From NCBI RefSeq assembly GCF_000023125.1, contig NC_013037.1, forward strand, positions 6,240,501 through 6,304,500: a DNA stretch of 64,000 nt, given 5' to 3'. The notes beneath the pieces were generated by a model. It did no database searches, was not told the DNA's origin, and worked only from the letters and a program-made list of their open reading frames with translations. Of the stretch, positions 48,290-64,000 are shown piece by piece. The first letter of the stretch is position 1; every line of letters starts with the position of its first letter. This DNA is from Dyadobacter fermentans DSM 18053 (GTDB lineage: Bacteria; Bacteroidota; Bacteroidia; Cytophagales; Spirosomataceae). Position numbers and translations under genes: made by a program.

Positions 48290-48374
48290 AGAGAGATGGC
48301 AGAGTGGTCGATTGCGACGGTCTTGAAAACCGTTGACTGTAACAGGTCCGGGGGTTCGAATCCCTCTCTCTCTG
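48290..48374 (+). tRNA. tRNA-Ser (anticodon UGA)
   Basis: 85 bases with a 7-bp acceptor stem (AGAGAGA 48290-48296 with TCTCTCT 48367-48373), discriminator G, anticodon loop CTTGAAAA with TGA, a long class II variable arm (GACTGTAACAGGTC) and T-loop TTCGAAT. The long arm and G73 fit serine. CCA is not encoded. It has a strong promoter and a terminator hairpin 24 bases downstream. An integrase gene follows, so its 3' end is the probable insertion site of the island. Confidence 0.95.
48350..48374. other. Candidate attachment site (tRNA-Ser 3' end)
   Basis: The T arm and 3' acceptor strand of the tRNA lie beside a tyrosine integrase, the usual attB position for such elements. I found no second copy in the window, so the other end would lie beyond 64000. 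This is inferred from position only. Confidence 0.4.
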
Positions 48375-48397
48375 CAGGACATGATGTCAAAACATTC

Positions 48398-48622: not shown

Positions 48623-49843
48623 ATGTTAGAAAACAGTTTCGGGTTAAATTTCTTTTTGAAAACACCAAGTACCGAAAACGAAGATGGCACGAGAGCTATC
48701 TACATGCGCGTGACCGTGAATCGCCAAGCAAGGGACATCGCTACGAGGCGAATTTGGCACCCATCCAAATGGAATGTCAGAGCAGGTAGAGCCACAGGAA
48801 ACAAAGAGGAAACCAAGGAGCTAAATGCCTACTTGGACTCGTTGACCGCCAAAGTATTCCAGGCAAAGAAAGCTTTACTTGATGCCGACAAGGAGTTGAC
48901 CGCAGACGCGATCAAAAATTTGATGCTTGGCAAGGAGGAAAGCAAAAGAACTATTCTCAAAATCTTCCGGGAGCATAACGATCAAATCGCAGCCCTAGTG
49001 GGTGCCGATTTCGCTCCTGGCACGCTTGAACGTTACGAGACGTCCCTCAAACACACTCGTGACTTCATTAAATGGAATTACCAGGAGGACGATTTAGACA
49101 TCAAGAAGCTGGACTACGAGTTTATTTCGCAATTCGAGTTTTGGCTTAAAGCCAAGAAAAAGATTAGTCACAATACCACTATGAAGTATTTGGCGAACTT
49201 TAAAAAAATCGTTCTGCTCTGCGTCAAGAGAGGCTGGCTTATGCGTGATCCTTTCTTTGCATTCAAGTTTACGAAACGAGAAGTTGATCGACAAGCTCTA
49301 ACTGAGAGTGAGTTGAAAAAAGTTTGGGAGAAGGATATGGGTACAGGCCGTTTGGCTTATGTGAAAGACATCTTCCTATTCTGCTGTTACACTGGACTCG
49401 CATATGCTGATGTATATAAGTTAAAGCGAACGGAGATCATCGAGGGAATTGATGGCGGGAAGTGGATTACGACGAAACGACAGAAGACTGACACACCTTC
49501 CAGAATCCCTCTTCTGCCGATGGCGCTGGAAATTATGGAGAAGTATGAAGATCATCCTCAATGCGAGAATGAAAATCGTGTACTGCCTGTGCTATCTAAT
49601 CAAAAGATGAATTCGTACTTGAAGGAGATTGCGGACTTATGTGGGGTTAAGAAAAATATCACTTTTCACTTGGCGCGGCACACGTTCGCTACAACGGTTA
49701 CTCTGACTAATGGGGTACCGATTGAGAGTGTATCCAAGATGCTAGGGCATCGGAATATTAAGACTACTCAGCAGTATGCGAAAATTGTCGACAGGAAGAT
49801 TAGCGATGATATGGCAAGGTTGAAGGATATTCTATCTAAGTAA
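48623..49843 (+). CDS. Tyrosine recombinase / integrase
   Basis: 406 residues in the layout of Bacteroidota integrases: an arm-binding domain (about 1-95), a SAM-like core-binding domain (about 105-205) and a catalytic domain (about 220-400). The catalytic motifs are HLARHTFAT (His and Arg II), LGHRNIKTTQQYAKI (His and nucleophile Tyr) and a Lys on a beta turn (TTKRQKTD). The position of the first Arg is occupied by Ala in CYTGLAYADVY, a known variation in this group (IntDOT also lacks it). It lies 248 bases after tRNA-Ser and probably inserted the island there. Confidence 0.92.
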   Translation: MLENSFGLNFFLKTPSTENEDGTRAIYMRVTVNRQARDIATRRIWHPSKWNVRAGRATGNKEETKELNAYLDSLTAKVFQAKKALLDADKELTADAIKNLMLGKEESKRTILKIFREHNDQIAALVGADFAPGTLERYETSLKHTRDFIKWNYQEDDLDIKKLDYEFISQFEFWLKAKKKISHNTTMKYLANFKKIVLLCVKRGWLMRDPFFAFKFTKREVDRQALTESELKKVWEKDMGTGRLAYVKDIFLFCCYTGLAYADVYKLKRTEIIEGIDGGKWITTKRQKTDTPSRIPLLPMALEIMEKYEDHPQCENENRVLPVLSNQKMNSYLKEIADLCGVKKNITFHLARHTFATTVTLTNGVPIESVSKMLGHRNIKTTQQYAKIVDRKISDDMARLKDILSK

Positions 49844-50400: not shown

Positions 50401-52164
50401 TCAGACGTCTTTAAAAATATTTGAAATCATCTCTTTGATGGTGCTGTTCTCTAGTCTTAGCCCGAGTGATTGAGACACATCTTGCCCTTCTGTTAAATGT
50501 AATGAGGTATTATAAACGATTCCCAGCAGAAAATATATTTCTGGCAACACTACGTTTATACTTTCTGCATAACGAAGCTTTTCTTTGGTCCCTCTCTTTT
50601 CGTTCAAAAATATTTCTTTAAACTCATCGCTTTCAATTTTGTCATAAACTAGTTTTTCTATCCTCACACGCGCTCCAAAACAAACAGAAATGGGGTCGAA
50701 CGGAGAATCTTCAAGTAAATATCTTCTGACTTCTCGGGCAATTTTTTTCCAGAAATTCGAAGGCGTTGCCCAATCCGTGTTGAGCTTTAGCGCTGTGAAC
50801 TCGGCCAATAAATTGACATCGTCGAAATTAGGGTGATAATGGAAATAGTATAGATCTAAGTCGATTTTTACCTTTGGATCTTCACGCTTGTAAATGATTT
50901 TAAGTATTTCTTTATTCGGTCGAAGCCGCACCTCTTTCAAGTAACATACCTTGATCCTGTTGTCGTTAAAACAAAAATGATTGAAAAATTTGGGATCCAA
51001 GTGTGTTAATAGAATAGGAAATATTCTTCGCTTAGCACGCTTCATTTCATCTATAAAGGTGGAGATGTAATATTGAAAAGCAATCAAATTAGCATCATCC
51101 AAATAGTCGAATATTTCGTCTATTATAAGAATACAATTGTCCTTTTTAAAATCTCGCCTTGATTTTAGTAACAAAGCTATGAAAGTAAGAATATCGCGTT
51201 GCCCATTGGAAACCTCATGGGCTTTTGGCCACTTGATAGTGAGCTTATTTCTCACTTCTTTTGGACTCAAATCAAACCTGTCGCCTACCGGATTGAAGGA
51301 TGATATAGTCTGAGTTAGTTGATCCTTCTCCCTAAGATAATCAAGATATTTCACAGCTTTCTTAAAGCGCCCCCCCATCGAATCCTTAACTTGAATGATC
51401 TGCCATGCTGACAAATAAAGATCTACTTCATCGCTGATTATTGAGAAATTATATGTCGCGATCACATTTGCTAGTTTTGTGAGCTCTTCCAATGCCCGAA
51501 ACGAGGGTAAGAGTTCTCTTTCAATCCATTGTTTAATATCCGAGCCAGTTCCTGTTTGCTCATTGATTGAGGTTACTCCATGGGCAATAGTGCGGCTATT
51601 ATTTACGAGACCAAATCGAGAAAAATCTATCTTCGCAACTATCTCGTTCAACAGGTTTGCCGACGAAAACAATTCGCCGATATTGAGTAAAACTCTATTA
51701 CCATTGAGACCAAAAGCCCGCTTCATATTCGCAGATGAATAATCAAAGCCAATTCGTTCTGGAATAGTATTTACCAAAACAGTTGTAACAATATCTAACG
51801 AAGTCTTCGCGAATGACCGACCGCCGAAAGATTGTACAACTGATTTTGGCTCCGTCTGATTATTTATAACGAAAACATCAAATACATCACCTATGGTGTT
51901 CTGGTTGTCATCGGCAATTAAAATTCGACCATCAGTTAAGGAGATAGAAAGCGATGGGCGGTTTTCCGATTTTCCTAAATAGTAATTATTTTCATCAAGT
52001 TCGATACGATTGGAACGCAATGAGTTAAATGCAATTGCAAATGAGCTTTTGCCAAACCCATTTGGAGCAACCAAGATATTTGGCTTATTAGGAATAGCAT
52101 CAAGGCTAAACTCCCGCTCCTCAATTCCTTTCACATTTTCAATTTTTACAGTTTTAAGATTCAT
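50401..52164 (-). CDS. ABC/SMC-class ATPase of a putative defence pair
   Basis: 587 residues. The N-terminus is the RecF/SMC-like head: VKIENVKGIEEREFSL and Walker A APNGFGKSSFAIAFNSL. The ABC signature appears as EVSNGQRDILTF (near residue 318), Walker B as CILIIDEIFDYLDDA and the H-loop as ILLTHLDPK. There is no long heptad coiled coil, so it is not a full SMC protein, and no TOPRIM motif that I can see, so it is not a simple OLD nuclease. The last ~190 residues are unassigned. It follows the helicase-nuclease gene by 110 bases on the same strand. The base composition is much richer in A and T than the core genes. Confidence 0.8.
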   Translation of the reverse strand: MNLKTVKIENVKGIEEREFSLDAIPNKPNILVAPNGFGKSSFAIAFNSLRSNRIELDENNYYLGKSENRPSLSISLTDGRILIADDNQNTIGDVFDVFVINNQTEPKSVVQSFGGRSFAKTSLDIVTTVLVNTIPERIGFDYSSANMKRAFGLNGNRVLLNIGELFSSANLLNEIVAKIDFSRFGLVNNSRTIAHGVTSINEQTGTGSDIKQWIERELLPSFRALEELTKLANVIATYNFSIISDEVDLYLSAWQIIQVKDSMGGRFKKAVKYLDYLREKDQLTQTISSFNPVGDRFDLSPKEVRNKLTIKWPKAHEVSNGQRDILTFIALLLKSRRDFKKDNCILIIDEIFDYLDDANLIAFQYYISTFIDEMKRAKRRIFPILLTHLDPKFFNHFCFNDNRIKVCYLKEVRLRPNKEILKIIYKREDPKVKIDLDLYYFHYHPNFDDVNLLAEFTALKLNTDWATPSNFWKKIAREVRRYLLEDSPFDPISVCFGARVRIEKLVYDKIESDEFKEIFLNEKRGTKEKLRYAESINVVLPEIYFLLGIVYNTSLHLTEGQDVSQSLGLRLENSTIKEMISNIFKDV

Positions 52165-52274
52165 ATGGACATTTATATGGAGGGGTAAGTAGGAACTAAG
52201 TTTATATTACATGTTCCTGCGTCAAGATTAAACTTCATCGCTGATTTAAAACGCTATTTACCACAAAATGTTTT

Positions 52275-55200
52275 CTATTCGCTACAAGCGACAACGAGCT
52301 CAACACCTACAGTCTCTTTGATATAAGATGCAGCCGCTGCCAGCAGCATTTTTTGACTGCCTGATACAGTTGTTCGAGATATCCCGGGCTGTACGATCAC
52401 AATCTCTGGCCTTACTTCCTTAAAACGGGACGCACGCAATAATTTGTTAACGTCAGCAATGTTTCCATTCAACACAAACGTGCGATGGCCCGTTGACGGT
52501 CGTCTAGCTCTATTTGTGATGTGACGACAAAGCTCTTTAAATCTTCCTGCCCACTTGGCTGACCTTATTGCCTGAGAGGCTACTTCTGCAACGTCTCCAA
52601 CCCTATTCCCCGCCTGTTCGCTTTTTGAAAATTTACAATGTACAAGCACAAGACGTATGAAATGCGCCTCCTCCTTTAAGCACACTAAATCAGCAGCCTC
52701 ACCAGGACCATCATCATCAATAACGACCTCGAAGTCATCATTGATAAACTTTTGGGCCGCAGCCCATTGAACTGAATTCCTCCTTTCAAAGCCATCTTTC
52801 CAAATGGATTCCCTTGTAATGTCCACCCCAACCCAATCCCACGGATCTAAACTATCTTCTGGCAATTCGAAATTGTAGGGATTTTCAGGACGTAGTACGA
52901 GGTTTCCGTCTAGCTCCGTAAGGTCAAAGTATCTAACCAACGGTGGGTAGTCAGAAAAATAAGATTCTGCTATAAATTCCTTAGACCCTACGTGAAATAT
53001 GATTTCTTCGTCCGAAACTCGAACAACCTCGAATCCCTGCGGGCCACCAATTTTCAAATCAAAAGTGCCTAGTACATCTGCCTGACTGTCTAGAAGCTCG
53101 AACCTTATTGAATTACCTGCTCGGTCTACCGAGCTAAGTTGAATATCGCATAGGTAAATTGGTATCTCTTTGCCGCCTAAACTAAGATCGACTCGATCCT
53201 CCGATTGCCGTAGTATTTCAAATGGCCATTCAATTCCCATTATTTCCCCATCGGGTAATGAAGTCACTTCAATCGGAATGAGAACATTTTCGATTATCTC
53301 CTCTGTTGTGATAGTTGCATCAAGAAGCTTTTCACCGACAGCCTCTGACCAGCCAATAAGTTGAGGTATTGTGCCGGATTCTTTTGACCAAACTCTTCCC
53401 TTATAAGAGCAACCAATTGTCACGTGTTTTCCTCTTTCCCAGCCCGACCCGCTCAAGTTTGCTTTTCTTGACCCTGGCGCTGCTGCAAAGGTCAATGCAT
53501 CCCTTACATTTGCTCCAGTATACATAGCATAGCTAAGATTCCGTCGACCATGCTTACTGACTCCAAGATTGTTAAATACAAGTCTGCCAATATTCCCCAA
53601 ACTCTTAAAAATTGGCTCTCCATCAATTATTGTAGTTGCTCCAACAGCGGCAGCAAGTTTCGCATGGTTAGATGTTTTGTCTGAAGAAGCCAGATAAAGT
53701 AAATTGCGCTTTTCGTCGAAGTGTAAAACAAAGAGATGCCAATCAGTCTCCACGAGGTCTTTTGATCTAGACCATTTGACGCGGACCTTCGACCTGGTAA
53801 CAAAATACAATGTCTGACTGTCCACATGCAACCAGACGCGTGTCACCTCAACATCTTTGGATATTGCTTCATGAAATTTCTTCGGGCTAAATGCAGGACA
53901 ATTGTAAGTCAGCGTGCTAAATACTGGACGTAACAAATGGTGGGAAATACTAGGAGCATCCTCTCGATCTTCTCCAAGCGATATAGAAGAATTTAAAAAG
54001 TCGACTAGCTGAGCATGATCCCGAGAAGCCTCGGAACTCATTTCACTGAGTAGCACATTCCAATCAGAGTCCTCACTATAAAGTCGTTCAAGCGCAGAGG
54101 ATATATTCGTATCTGTAATATTTGCGATTACTGTTGCATCACCAAGGTGCTCCCCTGATGTTCGAGTAAAACGTCCAGTAAACTGAAGAAGTGGGGCTAA
54201 ACTTTTCTGCGGATCGTGTAATGCCGCTATTTTCAATGGTGGCAAATCAAATCCTTCACCCAACATATTTACACAGACGGCTATTCGGCTGTCCCCAGTT
54301 ATCAAGCGATTGATACGCTCTTGACTATCTTGCAACTCAGAATGAATTATTTGAGGAGAGAACTCTGATCCATGCACTCGATAAAGCATAAGGATTTCTT
54401 GGGCTCTATCAATTTTTGAACATCGAGCCATGATTAGGTGGTTATTTCCAACAGCCAGATCTTCACGTAGTGTTTTACAAGCGAGATGCGCTATCGCGTC
54501 ATCAGCAGAATCTTGATGGAGTTCATGAACAGGAAGAAACTTAATCGGCTTAAAGTAACCGTCCTCCTGAGCTTTTCGAAGAGAATAGCTATATATGACG
54601 TCCCCATCAACGAGTTTTCCATCTTCGCGGAATGGTGTCGCTGTGAACTGCAGTGTGTATTTTCCGGAGAACGCCGAGCGAAGGTCACTCCAGCTGGTTG
54701 CCGCGACATGATGGGCTTCATCAACTATAAGAACACCACTGCGGTTAGCAATTTTCGAAGCAAGGTTTTTTGCTTTACCACCCGTAAGAGATGCCATCGC
54801 GGATACAACAACATTGCAATCCTCAAAAATAGCCAAGTCGTTCTCGCCACCCGGCTGCTTTGACAACAAGCCAACGATGGGATTTTCAACTTCTTCTGGT
54901 AGCAACGTCAACTTTCGTAACAACCCGAATGTTAAGAATTTTCGGGTCGTCTGATTCCGTAACGCCTTAGAGGGGACAGCGACTACCATCGGGCCGCGCG
55001 GGAATGCCGCCAATGCTGATAGCATTGTTTCGGTCTTTCCAGTTCCGGTCGGCATAACTACAGTGGCGATACTACTATTTTGAGTCCAATGAGATCCAAT
55101 AGCGTATAAAGCCCCAAGTTGTGGCGGCCTCAAACCCTTACGATCTCCAATTGGCTTTCCCTGTGCATCATATTCTTGGGCGGCAAAGCGGAAGGATCTT

Positions 55201-55568
55201 GGCCAGGTTCCAGCTATCGCTGCAGATCTTGACTTCATGCCAACAGCAACTGTTCGTTCCATTGCTTGGTCCAATAGCTTATGAGATATCCATCTCTTTC
55301 CACCGTCATCATACAGCCTTATGACTCCATCAACATCGGCAGGCCTCTCGAGCTTTGTCCTACTGGTTACAATGATCCGTTCGCCATTTTCAAGAACATA
55401 GCATTTTTCGCTAGTTCTTGGTCCGGTTCTAACATCCTCAATGTTCAGAACGCTGACTGTTGTTTCGTTACGCAAAAGTTGACAAGCGATACCAACCGAA
55501 TACCGTTTCAAAACAAGCAGTAACTCGGGCAAGACCAAGTTTTCGTTTATGATAGAAGAGAATTCCAC
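52275..55568 (-). CDS. SF2 helicase with putative C-terminal nuclease domain
   Basis: 1097 residues. After an N-terminal domain (~1-150), the DEAD/DEAH core has Walker A VVMPTGTGKTETM (near 176), LIVDEAHHVAATSW (near 284), TLQFTATPFR, and helicase C motifs NMLGEGFDLPPLKIAAL and QFTGRFTRTSG (near 466). About 400 residues with no assigned fold follow. Near the C-terminus, EAADLVCL (near 960) followed by VLVHCKFSKSE (near 977) resembles the D...(Q/H)CK arrangement of Mrr-like PD-(D/E)xK nucleases. It pairs with the ATPase gene downstream. Such helicase, nuclease and ATPase sets usually restrict phage or plasmid DNA, but I cannot match this pair to a named system. Confidence 0.78.
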   Translation of the reverse strand: MEFSSIINENLVLPELLLVLKRYSVGIACQLLRNETTVSVLNIEDVRTGPRTSEKCYVLENGERIIVTSRTKLERPADVDGVIRLYDDGGKRWISHKLLDQAMERTVAVGMKSRSAAIAGTWPRSFRFAAQEYDAQGKPIGDRKGLRPPQLGALYAIGSHWTQNSSIATVVMPTGTGKTETMLSALAAFPRGPMVVAVPSKALRNQTTRKFLTFGLLRKLTLLPEEVENPIVGLLSKQPGGENDLAIFEDCNVVVSAMASLTGGKAKNLASKIANRSGVLIVDEAHHVAATSWSDLRSAFSGKYTLQFTATPFREDGKLVDGDVIYSYSLRKAQEDGYFKPIKFLPVHELHQDSADDAIAHLACKTLREDLAVGNNHLIMARCSKIDRAQEILMLYRVHGSEFSPQIIHSELQDSQERINRLITGDSRIAVCVNMLGEGFDLPPLKIAALHDPQKSLAPLLQFTGRFTRTSGEHLGDATVIANITDTNISSALERLYSEDSDWNVLLSEMSSEASRDHAQLVDFLNSSISLGEDREDAPSISHHLLRPVFSTLTYNCPAFSPKKFHEAISKDVEVTRVWLHVDSQTLYFVTRSKVRVKWSRSKDLVETDWHLFVLHFDEKRNLLYLASSDKTSNHAKLAAAVGATTIIDGEPIFKSLGNIGRLVFNNLGVSKHGRRNLSYAMYTGANVRDALTFAAAPGSRKANLSGSGWERGKHVTIGCSYKGRVWSKESGTIPQLIGWSEAVGEKLLDATITTEEIIENVLIPIEVTSLPDGEIMGIEWPFEILRQSEDRVDLSLGGKEIPIYLCDIQLSSVDRAGNSIRFELLDSQADVLGTFDLKIGGPQGFEVVRVSDEEIIFHVGSKEFIAESYFSDYPPLVRYFDLTELDGNLVLRPENPYNFELPEDSLDPWDWVGVDITRESIWKDGFERRNSVQWAAAQKFINDDFEVVIDDDGPGEAADLVCLKEEAHFIRLVLVHCKFSKSEQAGNRVGDVAEVASQAIRSAKWAGRFKELCRHITNRARRPSTGHRTFVLNGNIADVNKLLRASRFKEVRPEIVIVQPGISRTTVSGSQKMLLAAAASYIKETVGVELVVACSE

Positions 55569-56111: not shown

Positions 56112-56756
56112 TTACCGTACCAAAGTCTCTAAACTTTTCTCGTAGTTCTGCAATTTGATGTTGAGCTCTACTTTTCGATTGAACTGCCTGCACCTAGCAA
56201 TTTGGGCTTTCAAACTCGCGATAGCCTTTTGTAGCTCCGTTCTTGTTCTCTCAGTTGTTACCAAATCAGACAAAGTCTCCTTTTGCCTTCCACTTATTTG
56301 CTGACAGATATCCAGGTAGACGGAATCAAGGCTCTTTCTTAAATTCAGAGAAAAATGTTGCTGGTCCTCGAAAATCCACGGGCTATTGAACATCCAGTCG
56401 ATCACAGCGACATCAGTATTCAAAGGATTGGGATGCTTCTGACAGGCTGATATCAATAATTCATGTCCATAGGTAGCACAGCAAATCAAGTGATACGGAA
56501 TTGCCTTATTAATGAGTTCAAGGACGACTTCAATCCCTTCTTTCTTTCTCAGTTCGAGGCTGAAAATCTGTATTTCCTGAATTTCATCTCCCGTTAAATT
56601 AATTGTATCGAAACTGAGCTTGTTTATCCATCGCATCCTCTCGATTACTTCAATTAAGAGCTTTTTTTGTTGCGATGTAGCATGTGCATCAAAAGCATTT
56701 TTGGGAATGCTCCTGCCGATCATAGTTCTTGAAGGAAGGTTAAATACATCCATCAT
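56112..56756 (-). CDS. DUF4391 domain protein of the type III restriction operon
   Basis: 214 residues. The N-terminal ~150 residues fit DUF4391: FNLPSRTMIGRSIPKNAFDA, IERMRWINKLSFDTINLTG, EIQEIQIFSLELRKKEG and NKAIPYHLICC. The C-terminal ~60 residues form a charged coiled coil (LQKAIASLKAQIARCRQFNR). The function of DUF4391 is unknown, but I recall it beside helicase and Mod/Res genes. The start ATGATGA overlaps the helicase stop. It is the last gene of the four-gene operon. A second ATG follows at once. Confidence 0.8.
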   Translation of the reverse strand: MMDVFNLPSRTMIGRSIPKNAFDAHATSQQKKLLIEVIERMRWINKLSFDTINLTGDEIQEIQIFSLELRKKEGIEVVLELINKAIPYHLICCATYGHELLISACQKHPNPLNTDVAVIDWMFNSPWIFEDQQHFSLNLRKSLDSVYLDICQQISGRQKETLSDLVTTERTRTELQKAIASLKAQIARCRQFNRKVELNIKLQNYEKSLETLVR

Positions 56757-59700
56757 TTCACGATAACAAAACTTACAAGGGTAAAATCTTCAATTCCCTT
56801 GGGCATTCCTATTGTTGCAGTTCCACCTGCTTTAAATAGGCTAAGTACCTCTTTCTCATCTCCAGTTTTCAGAATGGAACGGATACTTTTCTGCAATAAC
56901 TGGGAATAGTCGTGCATATCGCGGAAATCCCGTGTTTCCAGATTAAGCTGCTTGCAAAGTTCCTTCAACGGTTCAGTTTTGCCCTTGCAAAGTAGCCGTA
57001 GCATATCCAATGATTTCTTCGCTTCTAAATAGCCATGTAATACATTCTCATTTTCCTGAATGTACACCACGTAATACGGGGCTAATCGGTTCAGTTTATC
57101 CTTGTCTACAGAATCACTTATGTTCTTTAAAACAAAAATCACCCCGCGTTGATCGACATCACTTGCTGGCGTAACCGCATGCAATCCCAAGGGAATAGAG
57201 TCGGGATTGGGATATATTTTAACGAAATTAGCCAGATCCACCCTAAAATCATTTAATCCAAGATCAGTTATACTGACCCCTTCACGAAGATCTTCCAGGT
57301 CAACAACTTCTTCTTGCAGCCTTTTCAGTTGGATTTTTCTGTATTCCAGATCTTTCTCATCGGCATTGAGTATATTGTCATCGCCTGTGCTGGCGAGGTT
57401 ACTGATGGCCATTTTATTCTCAACGCGCTGCTTGAGATTAATATAGGCGTCCAGTGTAACGTCCGGCCAGAAATTAACCATGGTGATGGTGTCGTTCGCT
57501 GAGCCAATCCTATCAATACGACCAAACCGCTGAATGATACGAACGGGGTTCCAATGAATATCGTAATTAATCAGGTAATCACAATCCTGTAAGTTCTGGC
57601 CTTCCGAAATGCAATCTGTTGCAATCAGAATATCGATTTCTTCCTGAATATCGGGATAAATGATTGCCTTCCCTTTTGAGCGTGGGGAAAAGCAAGTCAA
57701 TAGCGTATTCAGATCAGACGGAACAGTCTTCGATGAACAAGCACGTTTTGATCCCGTGATTAGAGCGGTATTCAGGCCATACTCATTCCTAAAATAATCT
57801 TTCAGCTCTGAATAAATATAATTTGCTGTGTCTGCAAAAGCGGTAAATACGATCACTTTTTTGTTCCCGGCATTAGCCGGATTTTGGATCTTATCCACAA
57901 TAATCTTTCTAAGCTTGCCTAGCTTCAGATCACATTTCCCTCTCAGTAATTCGATTTCTTTCAGGAGTTCATTGATTACCAAGAGATCAGCAGAGAGGTC
58001 TTCCTGCCATCTTACTTTATCCATATCAGCGATATGAACTTTCACCTTGCTCCCGAAAACATTTTCCTCTTCTCCCCAATCCGGCTCCCAATCGAACTCT
58101 TCAGATGTAGGGTCTGCCGGAAGGCCTGAATACGTGTTAGCATCCCCCCGCGCAATTGCGCCTAAACCTTCTTCAATTAGCGCACGAATATTCAGGAGAG
58201 TCAGAGCAAAAGAATCGACGGAACTTTCTATTCGCTTTAAAAGATTGATGCGCATCAAGAGTTGCAAGCTCTTTTCACGGTCCCTTTGCTTGAAGGTTCC
58301 CGACTTTACGCGCTTATCATATTTCTCCGCGTAAAACGGAATTTTGCTTGGCAGAATATAATTTAAAGGTGAGTAAATAGAAAGATTCAGAAACTCTAAC
58401 CAATCGGCGATATGTTTGTAATTTAACTCCGTTCCTTCTTTTAGTGGGCTGTAAATCGAGATTGGTTTATTCCGTTGAGGAAATTTTCCGATTGCTGCTG
58501 TGTCGTAATAATTGGTTATATGTTTTCGGGACCGAGCAATCGTCAAACTGTCCAATATTTGGAAAAAATCAAAATCTAGCGCTTCCAACAGCCGGTCTGA
58601 GGTTCTTTCTTCGGTAGGTAGTTTAGACCAACTGTTGAAAGCCTGCTGTGCCCGCCGGAAGACCAGTTCGATTCCAAGGTCTGTATCCAGTTTCTCATCA
58701 ATTTGCCCTGCTGCACCCTCATAGGCCAGGGCAAGCTGATTACGCAGATCGTTAAAGCGGTTGTTGACAGGAGTGGCCGAAAGCATCAATACTTTCGTTT
58801 CAATACCCTCCTGAACAATCTTCCGAAGCAATTTTTGATAGCGGTTTTCTTTCCCTACGACTGTGTTGTTGTTACGAAAATTGTGTGATTCATCAATGAC
58901 TACCAGGCCATAGTTCCCCCAGTTAACACTTTCAAGATTCCTACCATTGCTAGTTCCTTTGTCTCGCGATAAATCTGTGTGAAACAAAACGTCGTATCGG
59001 AAGCGATCTTTACCCAAGATATTGTTTTTATCGTTGTGGCGGTAGGTGTTCCAGTTGGCCTCAAGCTTTTTAGGGCATAATACCAGAACATCTTTATTTC
59101 GCTTCTCGTAGTATTTGATAATCCCCAGAGCTGTAAAAGTTTTCCCCAGGCCCACACTGTCGGCGATGATACAGCCGTTGTACTTTTCCAGCTTGTTAAT
59201 TCCACCAATGACAGCATCCTGCTGAAAATTATACAGCCTATTCCATATGACGGTTTCTTTAAAACCGATGCTGTCATTTGGTAGATTGTCCAGCGACAAG
59301 TCACTGAGGAAGTCGCGAAAAATATTGTAGAGCGTTACAAAATAGACAAATTCCGGACTGTTCTCCTGATAAGCTCCCGCCAGATAACGGAGCACGCTTT
59401 CCGTTACTAGATCCGTATTTTCATCGTTATTCCATATCTCGTCAAACCATTCCAAATAGCCTTCGGCCATGGGGTAGTTGACTTTTGTTATCATTGAGCG
59501 ATGGCCTTTCCGGGAAGTAAAACCCAGGTCGGGAGATGTAAATCCAGCAAATCCTGAATAGGATGCACTATCTTCAGGCCCATTATCAACGTGAATCAGG
59601 CTATTCATAGGCGAATTACCAAGGGTGTTTGTTTTAAACACAGCTTTGTCCTTAACCCACTGGGCGCACTCCCGTGAGATGGCTCTCTGAGTCATCTCGT

Positions 59701-59977
59701 TTTTTAACCGTAACTCAAACTCACCACCACACAAATCAGACTCTTTCCGGATGTTCGGAATGTAAAATTCCCGCAGCTTTGGTTTAGACTTCTCCTCCAG
59801 AAAAGTGGGAGTTGTAAAAATAAACCGAAGCTCTTCAACGCTTTTCAGCTCTTTCCTTAGTGCTTCAAACGCATAGATTGAAAAAGCAGACGCTGCTACA
59901 CTTAGCTTACTACCCTTTCTGAATTCAAGCTTCAGATCGTCTCCCAGCCGACTATCTATGTTATTGAATATTTTCAT
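56753..59977 (-). CDS. SNF2-type helicase with PLD-like N-terminal domain
   Basis: 1074 residues. The N-terminal ~170 residues have a phospholipase-D-like look (KLSVAASAFSIYAFEALRKE, SGFAGFTSPDLGF) without a clear HKD catalytic motif. The SNF2 core follows: Walker A IADSVGLGKTFTALGII (near 273), LVVIDESHNFRN (near 363), LMLSATPVNNRFNDLRNQLA, then helicase C with ATDCISEGQNLQDCDYL and QRFGRIDRIGS (near 822). A ~200-residue C-terminal domain ends the protein. It lies 6 bases after res and overlaps the DUF4391 gene by 4 bases. It is likely an ATP-driven DNA translocase working with Mod and Res. Confidence 0.88.
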   Translation of the reverse strand: MKIFNNIDSRLGDDLKLEFRKGSKLSVAASAFSIYAFEALRKELKSVEELRFIFTTPTFLEEKSKPKLREFYIPNIRKESDLCGGEFELRLKNEMTQRAISRECAQWVKDKAVFKTNTLGNSPMNSLIHVDNGPEDSASYSGFAGFTSPDLGFTSRKGHRSMITKVNYPMAEGYLEWFDEIWNNDENTDLVTESVLRYLAGAYQENSPEFVYFVTLYNIFRDFLSDLSLDNLPNDSIGFKETVIWNRLYNFQQDAVIGGINKLEKYNGCIIADSVGLGKTFTALGIIKYYEKRNKDVLVLCPKKLEANWNTYRHNDKNNILGKDRFRYDVLFHTDLSRDKGTSNGRNLESVNWGNYGLVVIDESHNFRNNNTVVGKENRYQKLLRKIVQEGIETKVLMLSATPVNNRFNDLRNQLALAYEGAAGQIDEKLDTDLGIELVFRRAQQAFNSWSKLPTEERTSDRLLEALDFDFFQILDSLTIARSRKHITNYYDTAAIGKFPQRNKPISIYSPLKEGTELNYKHIADWLEFLNLSIYSPLNYILPSKIPFYAEKYDKRVKSGTFKQRDREKSLQLLMRINLLKRIESSVDSFALTLLNIRALIEEGLGAIARGDANTYSGLPADPTSEEFDWEPDWGEEENVFGSKVKVHIADMDKVRWQEDLSADLLVINELLKEIELLRGKCDLKLGKLRKIIVDKIQNPANAGNKKVIVFTAFADTANYIYSELKDYFRNEYGLNTALITGSKRACSSKTVPSDLNTLLTCFSPRSKGKAIIYPDIQEEIDILIATDCISEGQNLQDCDYLINYDIHWNPVRIIQRFGRIDRIGSANDTITMVNFWPDVTLDAYINLKQRVENKMAISNLASTGDDNILNADEKDLEYRKIQLKRLQEEVVDLEDLREGVSITDLGLNDFRVDLANFVKIYPNPDSIPLGLHAVTPASDVDQRGVIFVLKNISDSVDKDKLNRLAPYYVVYIQENENVLHGYLEAKKSLDMLRLLCKGKTEPLKELCKQLNLETRDFRDMHDYSQLLQKSIRSILKTGDEKEVLSLFKAGGTATIGMPKGIEDFTLVSFVIVK

Positions 59978-59983
59978 CCGTGA

Positions 59984-62900
59984 TTATTTCACTTGCACTA
60001 TTTCCAGCATTTGCTGGTAGTTGCTGACTTTTGAAAACTTCATCTCTTGTCCACTGATTGCTTTGAAATGTTCCCCGGCACAATGGATTTTCAGCTTTTC
60101 TATCTCGCGTAGCTCTAGGTCTGAATCCGTACCCTTGGTTTCTGCTACAAAATAGATGTGGCGGATAGTGTCCTTATCAAACACAATCGCCCAGTCAGGA
60201 CTATAATTAGCGACAGGCGTGGTAATGTAAAAACTTTTCGGAAGCTTAGCGTATACCTGAACATGGTTGCTGTTTTCCAATGCTTCGGCAAAACGTGCTT
60301 CGGTTTGTGAATCAGTAGTCAGAAAGTCATAAACATGCTTTTTCAATATTTCTGACTGCCGAATAACGGATTTGTCATTCACAAATACGGTTTTAGCATC
60401 ATGCCTGTCATCAACTTTGTGATAGACGATGTTATTGATGATCAGACTGGCCTTAACTTCATTGATTAGCTTGCTGGTTCGGGCTATAAACTCCTCTGGA
60501 TTTTTCCGGATCATCAGGAACTTGCTCGTGTCAATGCTCTTTAATATCTCGACGATGGTTTTTCGGGTAAGGTTGGTATGTTTGACAATCTCTCCAACCA
60601 CATCATATCTTGTATTTGTATAGACATCGGAATTGAGCTTCTTGTGTTGGCGGGAAGTCTCCTGAAAGGCATTCTTTTCCTGCAACTGCTCTTTCGTACT
60701 CTCCTCCAGCTCTCCGCTGCGGATTTCATACGTACGCTCCGAAATATTCAAATCTGCGTTTATCCGAATTTTGGCATCAGAAACCAGCTTTTCCGAGTTA
60801 AACTGTACTTCATAAATGGTTTTCAGGTTGATCTTATTCCAAAGCTTCTGAAATTCCTTCTTATGAAAGTTACTGTTCGTCTGAATTGTAATGCTTTGCC
60901 GGTCATTCTCAGGTTTGATGGCTTCGCCCATATAAACGGATCGTAGCAATTGATTTATGCTATCCCGAAATGCTTCCAATTGGTCAGGAAGGGGGATATT
61001 GTTTTCTTCAACCAACCTCCGTCCATCATCCGTAATTTTATCGTCATCGTCCAAAACATCCTCTTTATAAAGATACTTGTTCAACTTTTTCGCTTCTTCG
61101 AAGGTCAGGCGTTTTTGATTTCCATGCTCGTCAGTCAAAAGTTTACCAGTCAAAAATTCAACGGTCGCTTTTTGAGGTCGATCTTTTAAGGTCGCGGCAA
61201 TTTCTGATTGCAGGCCTCGGGCAAATTCTTCATAGCTTTCAGAGGCGATAATCGTCAGTTTATTGATTTCATGTACCTGCTCGCCAATGGCCTCTTCGTC
61301 CTGCCGTATGCCATGTTTATTGACCGAAAGACGCATACCGCGCCCTACTTCCTGACGGCGGCGAATGGACGCATCCGAATGCTTGAGGGTACAAATTTGA
61401 AAGACGTTCGGATTGTCCCATCCTTCTTTCAAGGCAGAATGCGAAAAAATGAAGCGGGTGGGTTCGTCAAAACTTAGCAATCGCTCCTTATCCTTCATAA
61501 TCAAGTCATAAGCGCTGATATCATCCGTCTCTTCACTTCCCCGCTTTACTAAGGGGTCAATCATTTTCCGTTGCTTATCAATGGAAAAATACCCGTTGTG
61601 CACCCTCTCTGCCGGATCACGTTGCAGATATTGATTGTAATCGGGATAGAACAGATCTAGATATTCGTTCCTTAGTTGAACGTATTCCTCCTCAAACATC
61701 TGGGCATATTCACCTAAACCAGGATTACCTTCCTTATCATAGATACGGTATTTATCTACTGTATCTATGAAGAAGAGCGATAGTACCTTGATTCCCTTGT
61801 CAAAAAGCTCTCGTTCTTTTTTTAAATGAGAACTGATCGTTTCGCGGATTTGTATTCGCCGGAATGCCTTTTCGTCCAGATCGCCAATAGCCTCTCCGGC
61901 TTCAATTATTTTCCCATTGATCACCACCCGGTTAAAATAGCCATCAACCTCCTCTAACAGCCAGTTTTTATACTGGGGCATTTCGCCGGAAAGTTCAAAC
62001 AGGTTGGCTCCTTTTTCAAGTTTCTCGCGTACCCGCCTGACGCCCGTCCCATTACGCTTTTCGTACTCCAAGACAGCAAGTGGGGGACGTGAGGTAGAAA
62101 GCTGGATTTGTTCCAGATATAGATATCCACTGGTACCCGTAGTACCTTTGATGTTGATACCTTTTACCTGGATTTTCTTTACGAGCTTCTTGTTATAGGC
62201 ATCCAGTGCATCGAGACGATATACCTTGTTATACTCAAATTTATGGGTAGCGGAATAACGGAGTGTAAAAAGCGGGTTGAAATCCTGCATACTCTCCAAG
62301 GTTTTATCGCCTTCTACCGATTGTGGTTCATCAATAATCAGAATGGGATTAGTCTGAGCGATAATCTCGATGGGCTTTCGAGTGCCGAACTGATCAAGTT
62401 CCATATAAATACGACGTGCATCTTTACCTTTAGCATTAAATGCCTGCGTATTGATGATCATCACACTAATGCGGCTATCCGACGCAAAACTCTCAATGTC
62501 CTGTGGACGAGATGAGTTATAAATAAATGGGCTAATGCGGTGTCCGTATCGCTCCTGGAAGTGGTCTTGCATCACCTGGAACGACTTATAGACCCCTTCA
62601 CGGATTGCAATACTGGGAACAACCACAATAAACTTACTCCAGCCATAAAGCTGGTGCAGTTCATACATGGTGCGGATATAGGTGTACGTTTTACCCGTTC
62701 CAGTCTCCATTTCAACGGTGAACTGATAGCCCTTTTTTACACCTTTGGGTTTTTCAAGGGATTTACTTTGAGTGATATCATTTTGCCGCTGAACCTGCTG
62801 AATGTTCTCTAGTAACTGATCTTCGGTAATCTGGATCTGCCGGTTTCGGTACCCGATCAGCTCCTCTACCTCCAGATCCATACCAAACTGACCTTTGCTT

Positions 62901-63040
62901 GCCGACCTTGCTTTGGCAATCAGTTCCTTGCTTTTTTCCAGTGTAAAACGGTTCGTTTCTCTGGGTTGCCCCAGAAAGCAGTCGGTGATGGCCTGAACAG
63001 CATCTAACTGAAAGCTTTGCTCTTTAAATTGTAGTTTCAT
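59984..63040 (-). CDS. Type III restriction enzyme Res subunit
   Basis: 1018 residues. The helicase core has Walker A VEMETGTGKTYTYIRTMYEL, motif II ILIIDEPQSVEGD (DEPQ, typical of Res) and RYSATHKFEYNKVYRLDALD; motif VI is in RRRQEVGRGMRLSVNKHG. The C-terminal endonuclease domain has PDWAIVFD followed by IYFVAETKGTDSD (near residue 955), the PD...ExK signature of type III restriction subunits. Together with Mod it cuts DNA near unmethylated, inversely oriented sites. It starts 3 bases after the mod stop. It is complete. Confidence 0.94.
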   Translation of the reverse strand: MKLQFKEQSFQLDAVQAITDCFLGQPRETNRFTLEKSKELIAKARSASKGQFGMDLEVEELIGYRNRQIQITEDQLLENIQQVQRQNDITQSKSLEKPKGVKKGYQFTVEMETGTGKTYTYIRTMYELHQLYGWSKFIVVVPSIAIREGVYKSFQVMQDHFQERYGHRISPFIYNSSRPQDIESFASDSRISVMIINTQAFNAKGKDARRIYMELDQFGTRKPIEIIAQTNPILIIDEPQSVEGDKTLESMQDFNPLFTLRYSATHKFEYNKVYRLDALDAYNKKLVKKIQVKGINIKGTTGTSGYLYLEQIQLSTSRPPLAVLEYEKRNGTGVRRVREKLEKGANLFELSGEMPQYKNWLLEEVDGYFNRVVINGKIIEAGEAIGDLDEKAFRRIQIRETISSHLKKERELFDKGIKVLSLFFIDTVDKYRIYDKEGNPGLGEYAQMFEEEYVQLRNEYLDLFYPDYNQYLQRDPAERVHNGYFSIDKQRKMIDPLVKRGSEETDDISAYDLIMKDKERLLSFDEPTRFIFSHSALKEGWDNPNVFQICTLKHSDASIRRRQEVGRGMRLSVNKHGIRQDEEAIGEQVHEINKLTIIASESYEEFARGLQSEIAATLKDRPQKATVEFLTGKLLTDEHGNQKRLTFEEAKKLNKYLYKEDVLDDDDKITDDGRRLVEENNIPLPDQLEAFRDSINQLLRSVYMGEAIKPENDRQSITIQTNSNFHKKEFQKLWNKINLKTIYEVQFNSEKLVSDAKIRINADLNISERTYEIRSGELEESTKEQLQEKNAFQETSRQHKKLNSDVYTNTRYDVVGEIVKHTNLTRKTIVEILKSIDTSKFLMIRKNPEEFIARTSKLINEVKASLIINNIVYHKVDDRHDAKTVFVNDKSVIRQSEILKKHVYDFLTTDSQTEARFAEALENSNHVQVYAKLPKSFYITTPVANYSPDWAIVFDKDTIRHIYFVAETKGTDSDLELREIEKLKIHCAGEHFKAISGQEMKFSKVSNYQQMLEIVQVK

Positions 63041-63043
63041 ACT

Positions 63044-64000
63044 TTAAATCACACGCATTTCAGTATCAGGGCTCAATTGCTTCAACAACTGGCGAACATT
63101 TTCCTTTGCTGTATCATCTTTGAAACTCTGGTCCCGAAACACAATTCGCAGCGGTTTATAGGATGCTATTTCCTTTGCAAAGGCCTCATCTATTCCCTTA
63201 TCGAAACAGGCTAGCAATGAGTCCTGGGCAACGCGGAACACCTTTTTATCAAGTACAAACAGTTGCTCAATCTTATAGGAAAGCGGCAAGCCCCAGTCCA
63301 GCATTACTTGGGCTAATAGATCATCAGCCGTACGATCAGGTTTGATATTGTCTGTAAATATGTCCATTTGATCCTGTTGATAATCCTGCGGACGGTAATA
63401 TACATCTTGCATATTACTGGAATCTAAGCGGAATGCACGAAAACCTATGTCTGGTCGTTTCTCGCTCCGATCCCTAAAATCCAGTTCTGCCGTTCTCTTT
63501 TGATCGTACTGTTCGCCCAGCGCTTTTCCTACTTGTCGGATGCGTTCCCTGCCTATCTGACAAATATCTGTGTACCCGTTAATGTATGCTCCCGATTCAT
63601 TAGGAGTTGGTTCTGGAAGTTGCACCATGATGAATTTTCGATGCGAGTTTTCACTACTGTTTGAATCTAGAATGGCATGCGCCATTGACGCCGAACCTGC
63701 AAAAAAATCAAGCACAATATCATCTGGGCCTAAGTTTGCCACTCGAATTAAGTGTTTCAAAAGCCGTAATGGTTTAGGGTTACTAAAAATCTTTGGGCCT
63801 ATTAACTTAGCTAATTCTTGTCCACCATCTCGATTTCTACCGTGTATATTCTCAACTAAAAGACTTCTAGGGGTAACTCCATCAAGAGACTCCCAAGTAC
63901 GTGTATAGACCCTCCACTCTCCGGTTTTTTTATCCCTATGAAATTCTATCTCACTTTTTTCCGTTTCAATTTTGTCCTTGCTCCATCTCCAAATTGTTGT
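63044..64000 (-). CDS. Type III DNA methyltransferase Mod, 5' part outside window
   Basis: The frame is open from the stop at 63044 to the right edge (319 codons seen). The visible part starts TIWRWSKDKIETEKSE, then FSNPKPLRLLKHLIRVANLG and SAM-binding motif I IVLDFFAGSASMAHAIL, then RKFIMVQLPEP and the C-terminal Mod domain (EQLFVLDKKVFRVAQDSLLA). The order, with motif I near the C-terminus, fits beta-class N6-adenine methyltransferases, whose DPPY motif would be upstream of the window. It methylates the recognition site of the Mod-Res enzyme and is the first visible gene of the four-gene operon. Confidence 0.92.
   Translation of the reverse strand, partial: TTIWRWSKDKIETEKSEIEFHRDKKTGEWRVYTRTWESLDGVTPRSLLVENIHGRNRDGGQELAKLIGPKIFSNPKPLRLLKHLIRVANLGPDDIVLDFFAGSASMAHAILDSNSSENSHRKFIMVQLPEPTPNESGAYINGYTDICQIGRERIRQVGKALGEQYDQKRTAELDFRDRSEKRPDIGFRAFRLDSSNMQDVYYRPQDYQQDQMDIFTDNIKPDRTADDLLAQVMLDWGLPLSYKIEQLFVLDKKVFRVAQDSLLACFDKGIDEAFAKEIASYKPLRIVFRDQSFKDDTAKENVRQLLKQLSPDTEMRVI

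Follow-up and report, generated by a model that had tools for sequence, protein, structure and literature searches.

Two neighbouring genes on the minus strand of the Dyadobacter fermentans DSM 18053 genome, both contained in the 64,000-nucleotide stretch analysed here (NC_013037.1, positions 6,240,501 to 6,304,500; called the window and numbered from its first base), do not form a conserved module. One encodes an ABC-ATPase of 587 residues (50401..52164), which belongs to an unnamed family and carries a putative PrrC/RloC-like C-terminal nuclease domain, and the other, separate from it, encodes a superfamily 2 (SF2) helicase-nuclease of 1097 residues with a GTG start (52275..55568). We consider it probable that they are two independent anti-phage genes carried next to each other on an integrative element. 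The anatomy of the element, its end repeats and the lack of pairing in the genomes tested are observed directly, whereas the defence roles of the two genes are predicted. All features of the two proteins given below lie on the minus strand.

Both open reading frames (ORFs) are conserved genes and not chance frames, since 2885 relatives of the helicase and 1273 of the ATPase were found at E<=1e-3 (7996 and 7995 candidates scored, respectively). A preliminary description, made from the sequence alone, had given their lengths, order and spacing of 110 bases (found at 52165-52274), and all of these were borne out. The ATPase motifs that it named, GFGKSS (residues 36-41), SNGQRD (319-324) and IIDEIFDY (347-354), are present, and D960 and H977-C978-K979 of the helicase have the positions it gave. 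The start codons are uncertain, with public copies of 1085 residues for the helicase (P0001) and 577 residues for the ATPase (P0121). Dyadobacter sp. BHUBP1 has a protein with 97% identity to the ATPase.

Occurrence of the two genes apart from each other

Scanning genome contigs with the helicase alignment gave 395 relatives, and the best 80 of the 395 were taken as loci, with up to 10 kb of DNA fetched on each side and less at contig ends. The ATPase (A1 family) was not found in the fetched DNA of any helicase locus (80 of 80), and its profile matched none of the 23 genomes of the closest helicases, in a search that did not include a positive control; the same profile gave a signal in two other searches. 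The ATPase occurs in 12 other distinct loci, which lie on viral contigs (L082, L083, L173, L175 and L176), in genomes (L087, L088, L143 and L144) and on plasmids of Brochothrix, Sinorhizobium and Agrobacterium (L090-L092); L172 and L174 duplicate L082 and L083, so that each was counted once. In the fetched DNA of these loci the helicase was not found (12 of 12; by profile, and through whole-genome search for L143 and L144), nor was it found in the other ATPase genomes (4 of 4; G316, G371, G537 and G707), where the window's own genome rang as positive control. Each gene also occurs without the other on plasmids. Within Dyadobacter, 2 of 48 genomes have the helicase, and the ATPase is present in 1 of 37 members examined. 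Searching one family of 46 genomes, another of 86 and an order of 16 for further ATPase loci gave only the already known ones, and no match to the ATPase was found among 50,697 phage records.

The preliminary description had taken helicase and ATPase for a two-gene module, possibly one defence system, and had proposed a survey of co-occurrence, in which a lack of conserved pairing elsewhere would refute it. Across the genomes tested this survey gave no conserved pairing, and we reject the two-gene reading because the partner is missing (it was seen at none of 80 helicase loci, in none of 23 helicase genomes, at none of the 12 other ATPase loci and in none of the 4 other ATPase genomes), while plasmids too carry either gene alone. 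What favours it is the common strand and the 110-bp gap in the window, together with the metagenomic contigs of helicase P0003 and ATPase P0182, which we noticed by eye to be equal in size (8700). The equal size means that a rare real pairing is possible, although such a coincidence could also arise by chance among the 120 x 120 listed proteins. Short flanks at several loci and the missing control of the 23-genome search count on the same side. Contradicted as it is in the genomes tested, a two-gene system is very improbable.

The ATPase, its putative C-terminal triad and its neighbours

The RecF/SMC-type ATPase of the preliminary description holds good as a Rad50/SMC/PtuA-like ABC fold. In an AlphaFold2 model of the whole protein (mean predicted local distance difference test score, pLDDT, 87.2), Foldseek places the ABC part near Rad50 (among the top matches), SMC, PtuA and retron ATPases. 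In the Walker A motif PNGFGKSS (residues 34-41; 52042..52065), N35, G36 and K39 do not vary among the 29 sequences compared, and G38 and S40 are kept in 28 of 29. In the ATPase copy at L087:933-2696 (G371), an arginine replaces the glycine G38, so ATP binding may be impaired in it. The model also has a mainly helical C-terminal domain (residues 410-587; 50404..50937). It holds a putative R-x3-E...H triad, a signature absent from the preliminary description, which consists of R499 (50668..50670), E503 (50656..50658) and H556 (50497..50499), the last within N552-x3-H556. R499 and E503 lie in the helix 491-509, and H556 lies just past the helix 542-555.

In a set of 24 sequences, the residues invariant throughout are Y408, R427, H442, F471, R499, E503, T526, K529, L530, P541, E542, L546, L547, N552, H556, L571 and N573. 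When five more sequences were added (29 in total, identity down to about 30%), R499, E503 and H556 were still invariant (29 of 29), and N552 (28 of 29) and E542 were each replaced by D once. In the 24-sequence set, which the spacing and permutation counts use, the distance from Glu to His is 50-52 in every sequence (50 in 2, 51 in 6 and 52 in 16). Random placement of the 17 invariant residues reproduced the R-E-H arrangement with P 0.0029, and with P 2e-5 when N-x3-H was added, both of them post hoc values.

A similar arrangement is known from RloC. The RloC report describes a conserved Arg-X3-Glu-X36-52-His, sets it beside Arg320-Glu324-His356 of PrrC, and states that RloC lost its activity when any of the three residues was replaced and that it is rarely linked to type I restriction-modification (R-M) systems (PMC2610378). 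In AAA_13-type proteins from other genomes, we found R-x3-E-x36-52-H in the last 190 residues of 20 of 32, and 13 of these 20 have N-x3-H too (e.g. INDGSH); the 12 without the pattern include several truncated frames and five PrrC-like proteins with a shorter spacing. The N-x3-H ending (LNLLSH) is also found in 3 of the 5 PrrC-like proteins, again at the shorter spacing; the counterpart in the window ATPase is YNTSLH. Besides, short PrrC-like proteins (373 residues) stand beside an hsdM-like gene at L098, L099 and L100; the latter two come from the window's own genus, which therefore also has classical-looking PrrC genes.

To describe the genomic context, we took 13 loci, namely the window and the 12 others. 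It turned out that a set of modification-defence genes holds or directly adjoins the ATPase in 6 of 13 loci, belonging to type I R-M (2), type III R-M, bacteriophage exclusion (BREX), and a methyltransferase (2). The operon at L143 and L144 is type I R-M, with a fused methylase-specificity gene, HsdR and a Y1-transposase-like gene, and the ATPase starts 13 (L143) and 12 (L144) bases after the fused gene. At L173, a type III operon runs through mod, res and two small genes to the ATPase, no gap being longer than 9 bases. At L176, PglZ (1120 bits) and BrxL (1014 bits), the two components from which BREX was called, precede a HARE-HTH/Mrr gene that shares 4 bases with the ATPase gene. At L092, overlapping genes for a C5 methyltransferase, a small ORF product and the ATPase form an operon, and at L088 the start of an N6/N4 methyltransferase gene lies 204 bases downstream of the ATPase. 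Other loci are looser: at L090 the other strand has a type III res gene from about 3 kb away, and the near edge of the window's type III operon, a DUF4391 gene, lies 3.9 kb from the ATPase and res 7.8 kb from it, with the helicase in between; here the ATPase is not embedded in the R-M operon. Under a rule of same strand, gaps of at most 300 bases and a methyltransferase motif, which misses BREX and counts the related L143 and L144 separately, a methyltransferase shares the operon in 5 of 13 ATPase loci versus 6 of 80 helicase loci, and 8 of 13 ATPase loci are without a contiguous one.

Two of these loci deserve a word on their further genes. Directly downstream of the ATPase at L143 (5484-8930) lie a 93-residue ORF and a 284-residue ORF, the latter without Pfam match, and further on a HipA-like gene. 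The order at L176:550-8740 is PglZ, BrxL, the HARE-HTH/Mrr gene, the ATPase and then an ADP-ribosylglycohydrolase gene.

Several results weigh against a PrrC-like nuclease that serves modification systems. The motif test was post hoc. In hhalign, the C-terminal domain against the C-termini of RloC-like (15), PrrC-like (5) and other AAA_13 proteins (7), and against all 27 together (from 32 extracted), gave Prob < 1% and P 0.13-0.41; R-x3-E fell in register in two of these non-significant alignments (RloC-like and other), which we do not count as evidence. The RloC-like match is confined to the ABC C-lobe (residues 260-402; Prob 74, P 2.9e-5), and the full-length ATPase aligns weakly with the PrrC-like proteins in local hhalign (Prob 7). 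None of the 13 ATPase members matches AAA_13 (PF13166) in Pfam at E<=0.01. As to context, no modification gene was found near the ATPase in the DNA fetched for 5 of 13 loci (L082, L083, L087, L091 and L175), and L143 and L144 are related and share the same operon. Neither did other searches name the family: the ATPase has no PADLOC, Pfam or NCBIfam family above cut-off, searching the PDB with its profile gave nothing usable, and no HEPN entry was among the fold matches listed for the whole-ATPase query, which were filled by ABC domains.

Judged by its sequence, then, the ATPase is PrrC-like in design and not a proven member of the PrrC/RloC nucleases, because its C-terminal profiles have no significant match and 0 of 13 members match PF13166. 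That it is a PrrC-like RNase with a C-terminal catalytic triad is nevertheless the reading we favour, with RNase activity as what we infer, since the C-terminal match to the RloC and PrrC profiles is not significant. We likewise think it reasonably likely that the ATPase backs up DNA-modification defence as an effector, given the observed association and triad. In such a mechanism, an ABC-ATPase dimer would restrain a metal-independent C-terminal RNase domain (R499, E503, H556) for as long as the R-M or BREX partner is functioning; a phage that defeats or overloads this partner system would release the RNase, which would then cut RNA, most likely tRNA, and translation would stop. A 2013 survey of HEPN proteins took PrrC as its model and proposed that R-M-linked members belong to a multi-pronged second line of defence (PMC3710099), and the conserved ATPase, its triad and its repeated placement with unlike modification systems fit this proposal.

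A different possibility is that the ATPase carries no nuclease itself and works as an AriA/PtuA-like ABC sensor or scaffold, whose C-terminal helices bind a partner protein or DNA and whose conserved R, E, N and H serve in structure or contacts. The non-significant match of the C-terminal profile to HEPN nucleases points that way, as do the Foldseek neighbours of the ABC part and a weak NCBIfam PtuA match in 2 of 13 members. However, a constant partner gene was not found and the neighbours vary by locus, and the invariant residues R499, E503, K529, N552 (28 of 29) and H556 are grouped in the C-terminal domain with RloC-type spacing, which leaves the scaffold rather unlikely. The RNase reading can also be taken further: the family may tentatively be seen as an undescribed family of PrrC-like suicide RNases, a transferable guard that would serve operons of type I R-M, type III R-M, BREX and solitary methyltransferases alike and sense their failure via a common signal, not through one dedicated partner.

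PrrC is the textbook tRNase that guards one R-M system. With PrrC and its EcoprrI type I R-M system the window family shares an ABC ATPase with a C-terminal R-x3-E...H and a gene placed inside R-M operons at L143 and L144 (type I) and L173 (type III). It differs in not being PF13166 by sequence, in its length (577-602 versus 373-381 residues for the PrrC-like proteins found here), in an E-to-H spacing of 50-52 versus 31 in PrrC (from the residue numbers printed in PMC2610378) and in occurring also with type III R-M and BREX genes. RloC is similar in the ABC C-lobe (Prob 74) and in the R-x3-E-x36-52-H spacing, whereas the window ATPase has a short helical insert in the model and not a long coiled coil, no zinc hook CxxC was found in its 587 residues, and modification genes often adjoin its family. 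APECO1_4465 and ERFG_01251, listed in 2013 as ABC-HEPN fusions, resemble it in their ABC ATPase, and the survey gives them a proposed C-terminal HEPN domain and places them in R-M operons or prophages (PMC3710099); the window family may be one of these groups. PtuA, the retron ATPases and AriA share the Rad50-like ABC fold and give weak N-terminal PADLOC hits, but no HNH, reverse transcriptase (RT) or TOPRIM partner was recognised beside the window ATPase.

The predicted helicase-nuclease

The preliminary description had seen an SF2 helicase with a possible Mrr-like D...HCK site, and this part of it is well borne out. The core (residues 126-537; 53958..55193), with its DEAH box at D283-H286, is closest to RadD and XPB, and the C-terminal residues 933-1097 (52278..52772) align in hhalign with Mrr_cat (P 9.9e-5), at a score reached by 0 of 200 shuffles. 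In this alignment D960 and H-C-K979 stand in the catalytic register of Mrr, with the D and the x-x-K on core strands. In order, the secondary structure of the domain is helix 933-943, strands 948-951, 961-966 and 970-978, helix 988-1008 and strand 1051-1064. The putative metal-binding residue D960 (52689..52691) and the putative catalytic lysine K979 (52632..52634) are invariant in 58 sequences. In Pfam and NCBIfam, only generic helicase domains matched above cut-off. From such sequence comparisons, the protein is very likely a RadD/XPB-like SF2 motor fused to an Mrr-type PD-(D/E)XK nuclease. The motor would move on DNA and the fused domain would cut it, and the gene is probably a single-gene DNA-cutting defence.

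The same core, nearest to RadD and XPB, and the position of the helicase after radA in one Bernardetia plasmid could instead suggest a DNA-repair enzyme that is carried along. Against this stand the patchy distribution (2 of 48 genomes of the genus), the occurrence on plasmids, the Azaca-type genes beside the helicase in an alphaproteobacterial subset, and the fusion to the Mrr-type domain; we regard the repair role as unlikely.

In Alphaproteobacteria, with one representative scanned per cluster, helicase relatives adjoin homologues of ZacABC (Azaca) at L064, L072, L073, L075, L077, L078 and L080, and partly at L017, L055 and L061. Several of these loci also contain a UvrD-type helicase (partial GajB/RTasHel PADLOC hits), an 884-residue gene that looks AddB-like and an upstream WYL gene.

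Several known systems combine similar parts. Hna, an anti-phage protein, likewise joins an SF2 helicase and a C-terminal PD-(D/E)XK nuclease in a single chain (PMC13381803). It is described as an 845-residue, DinG-like enzyme (PMC13381803), while the window helicase has 1097 residues and a RadD/XPB-like core. SauUSI (7clg) and the type I HsdR (EcoR124I) are also SF2 motors with a nuclease, but the matches of the window helicase to them are confined to the motor as far as seen. Its best PADLOC and NCBIfam hits are PbeA and dnd_restrict_1; the match covers the helicase core only, and PbeA has an HKD nuclease according to its report (PMC10853773), in contrast to the PD-(D/E)XK domain of the window helicase. 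For Gabija, Lamassu, Wadjet, Hachiman, PARIS and Septu, no full-length PADLOC match of either protein was found, the best partial ones reaching 23 bits (ATPase) and 62 bits (helicase core). The earlier remark that pairing and domain order fit no known set stands in so far as a profile search of PADLOC 2.0 gave neither protein a full-length match.

The integrative element and the place of the two families

At lower window positions than the two genes lie a tRNA-Ser (tga) gene (48290..48375, plus strand), the integration site of the element, and a tyrosine integrase (48623..49843, plus strand; Pfam Phage_integrase and Phage_int_SAM_5). A 22-bp repeat at 48355..48376 (plus strand), made of the last 21 bases of tRNA-Ser and the next base, has an exact copy beyond the window at 76034-76055 in window numbering. 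On that strand of the 161 kb examined, the 100 bases surrounding the end of the tRNA gave no other match as long as this. The exact repeat thus bounds an element of about 27.7 kb. Its cargo comprises the integrase, the helicase, the ATPase and a type III R-M operon and, beyond the window, ORFs resembling a ParA-type ATPase and mobilization/relaxase genes, which we named by appearance. The AT-rich island with a restriction operon of the preliminary description is likewise borne out: the GC content across the island is 0.38-0.45, down from about 0.50, and the type III operon adjoins. Promoter and terminator scans gave counts near chance (19 vs 15.0 +/- 4.3 and 5 vs 5.5 +/- 2.7).

The type III R-M operon occupies 56112..64000 of the window on the minus strand and runs on to 65083. 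It consists of mod (63044-65083 in window numbering), res (59984-63040), an SNF2/HKD helicase gene (56753-59977; PADLOC candidate C3a139, 397 bits) and the DUF4391 gene (56112-56756), and the presence of mod-res, the SNF2/HKD helicase and DUF4391 in one operon makes it an extended type III R-M system. All minus-strand genes, the helicase and the ATPase included, might then belong to one composite type III system with several effectors: they share one strand within the element, and L173 has mod, res, two genes and the ATPase as a single operon. However, 543 bp separate DUF4391 from the helicase ORF, the neighbours of the helicase differ among loci (these were not annotated gene by gene), and the two intervening genes of L173, being without Pfam match, are not recognisable as the helicase, SNF2/HKD or DUF4391. 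A composite system is therefore improbable, and independent cargo genes remain our preferred reading.

In the passages of the literature searched, PMC12839542 among them, neither family was found described under a name that could be matched. Fusions of ABC-ATPase and HEPN domains are already known, so the window ATPase family is at most a further variant of them. PADLOC 2.0 lacks full-length models for the two proteins, so both would escape annotation that relies on it. With the helicase comes a further unnamed family, of predicted single-protein SF2/Mrr nucleases. If our reading of the ATPase is true, it would be a second, sequence-distinct ABC-ATPase family with a triad of the PrrC kind beside type I R-M, type III R-M and BREX, and would suggest that RNase guarding of modification-based immunity is general, raising the question of which common signal such an RNase guard reads.

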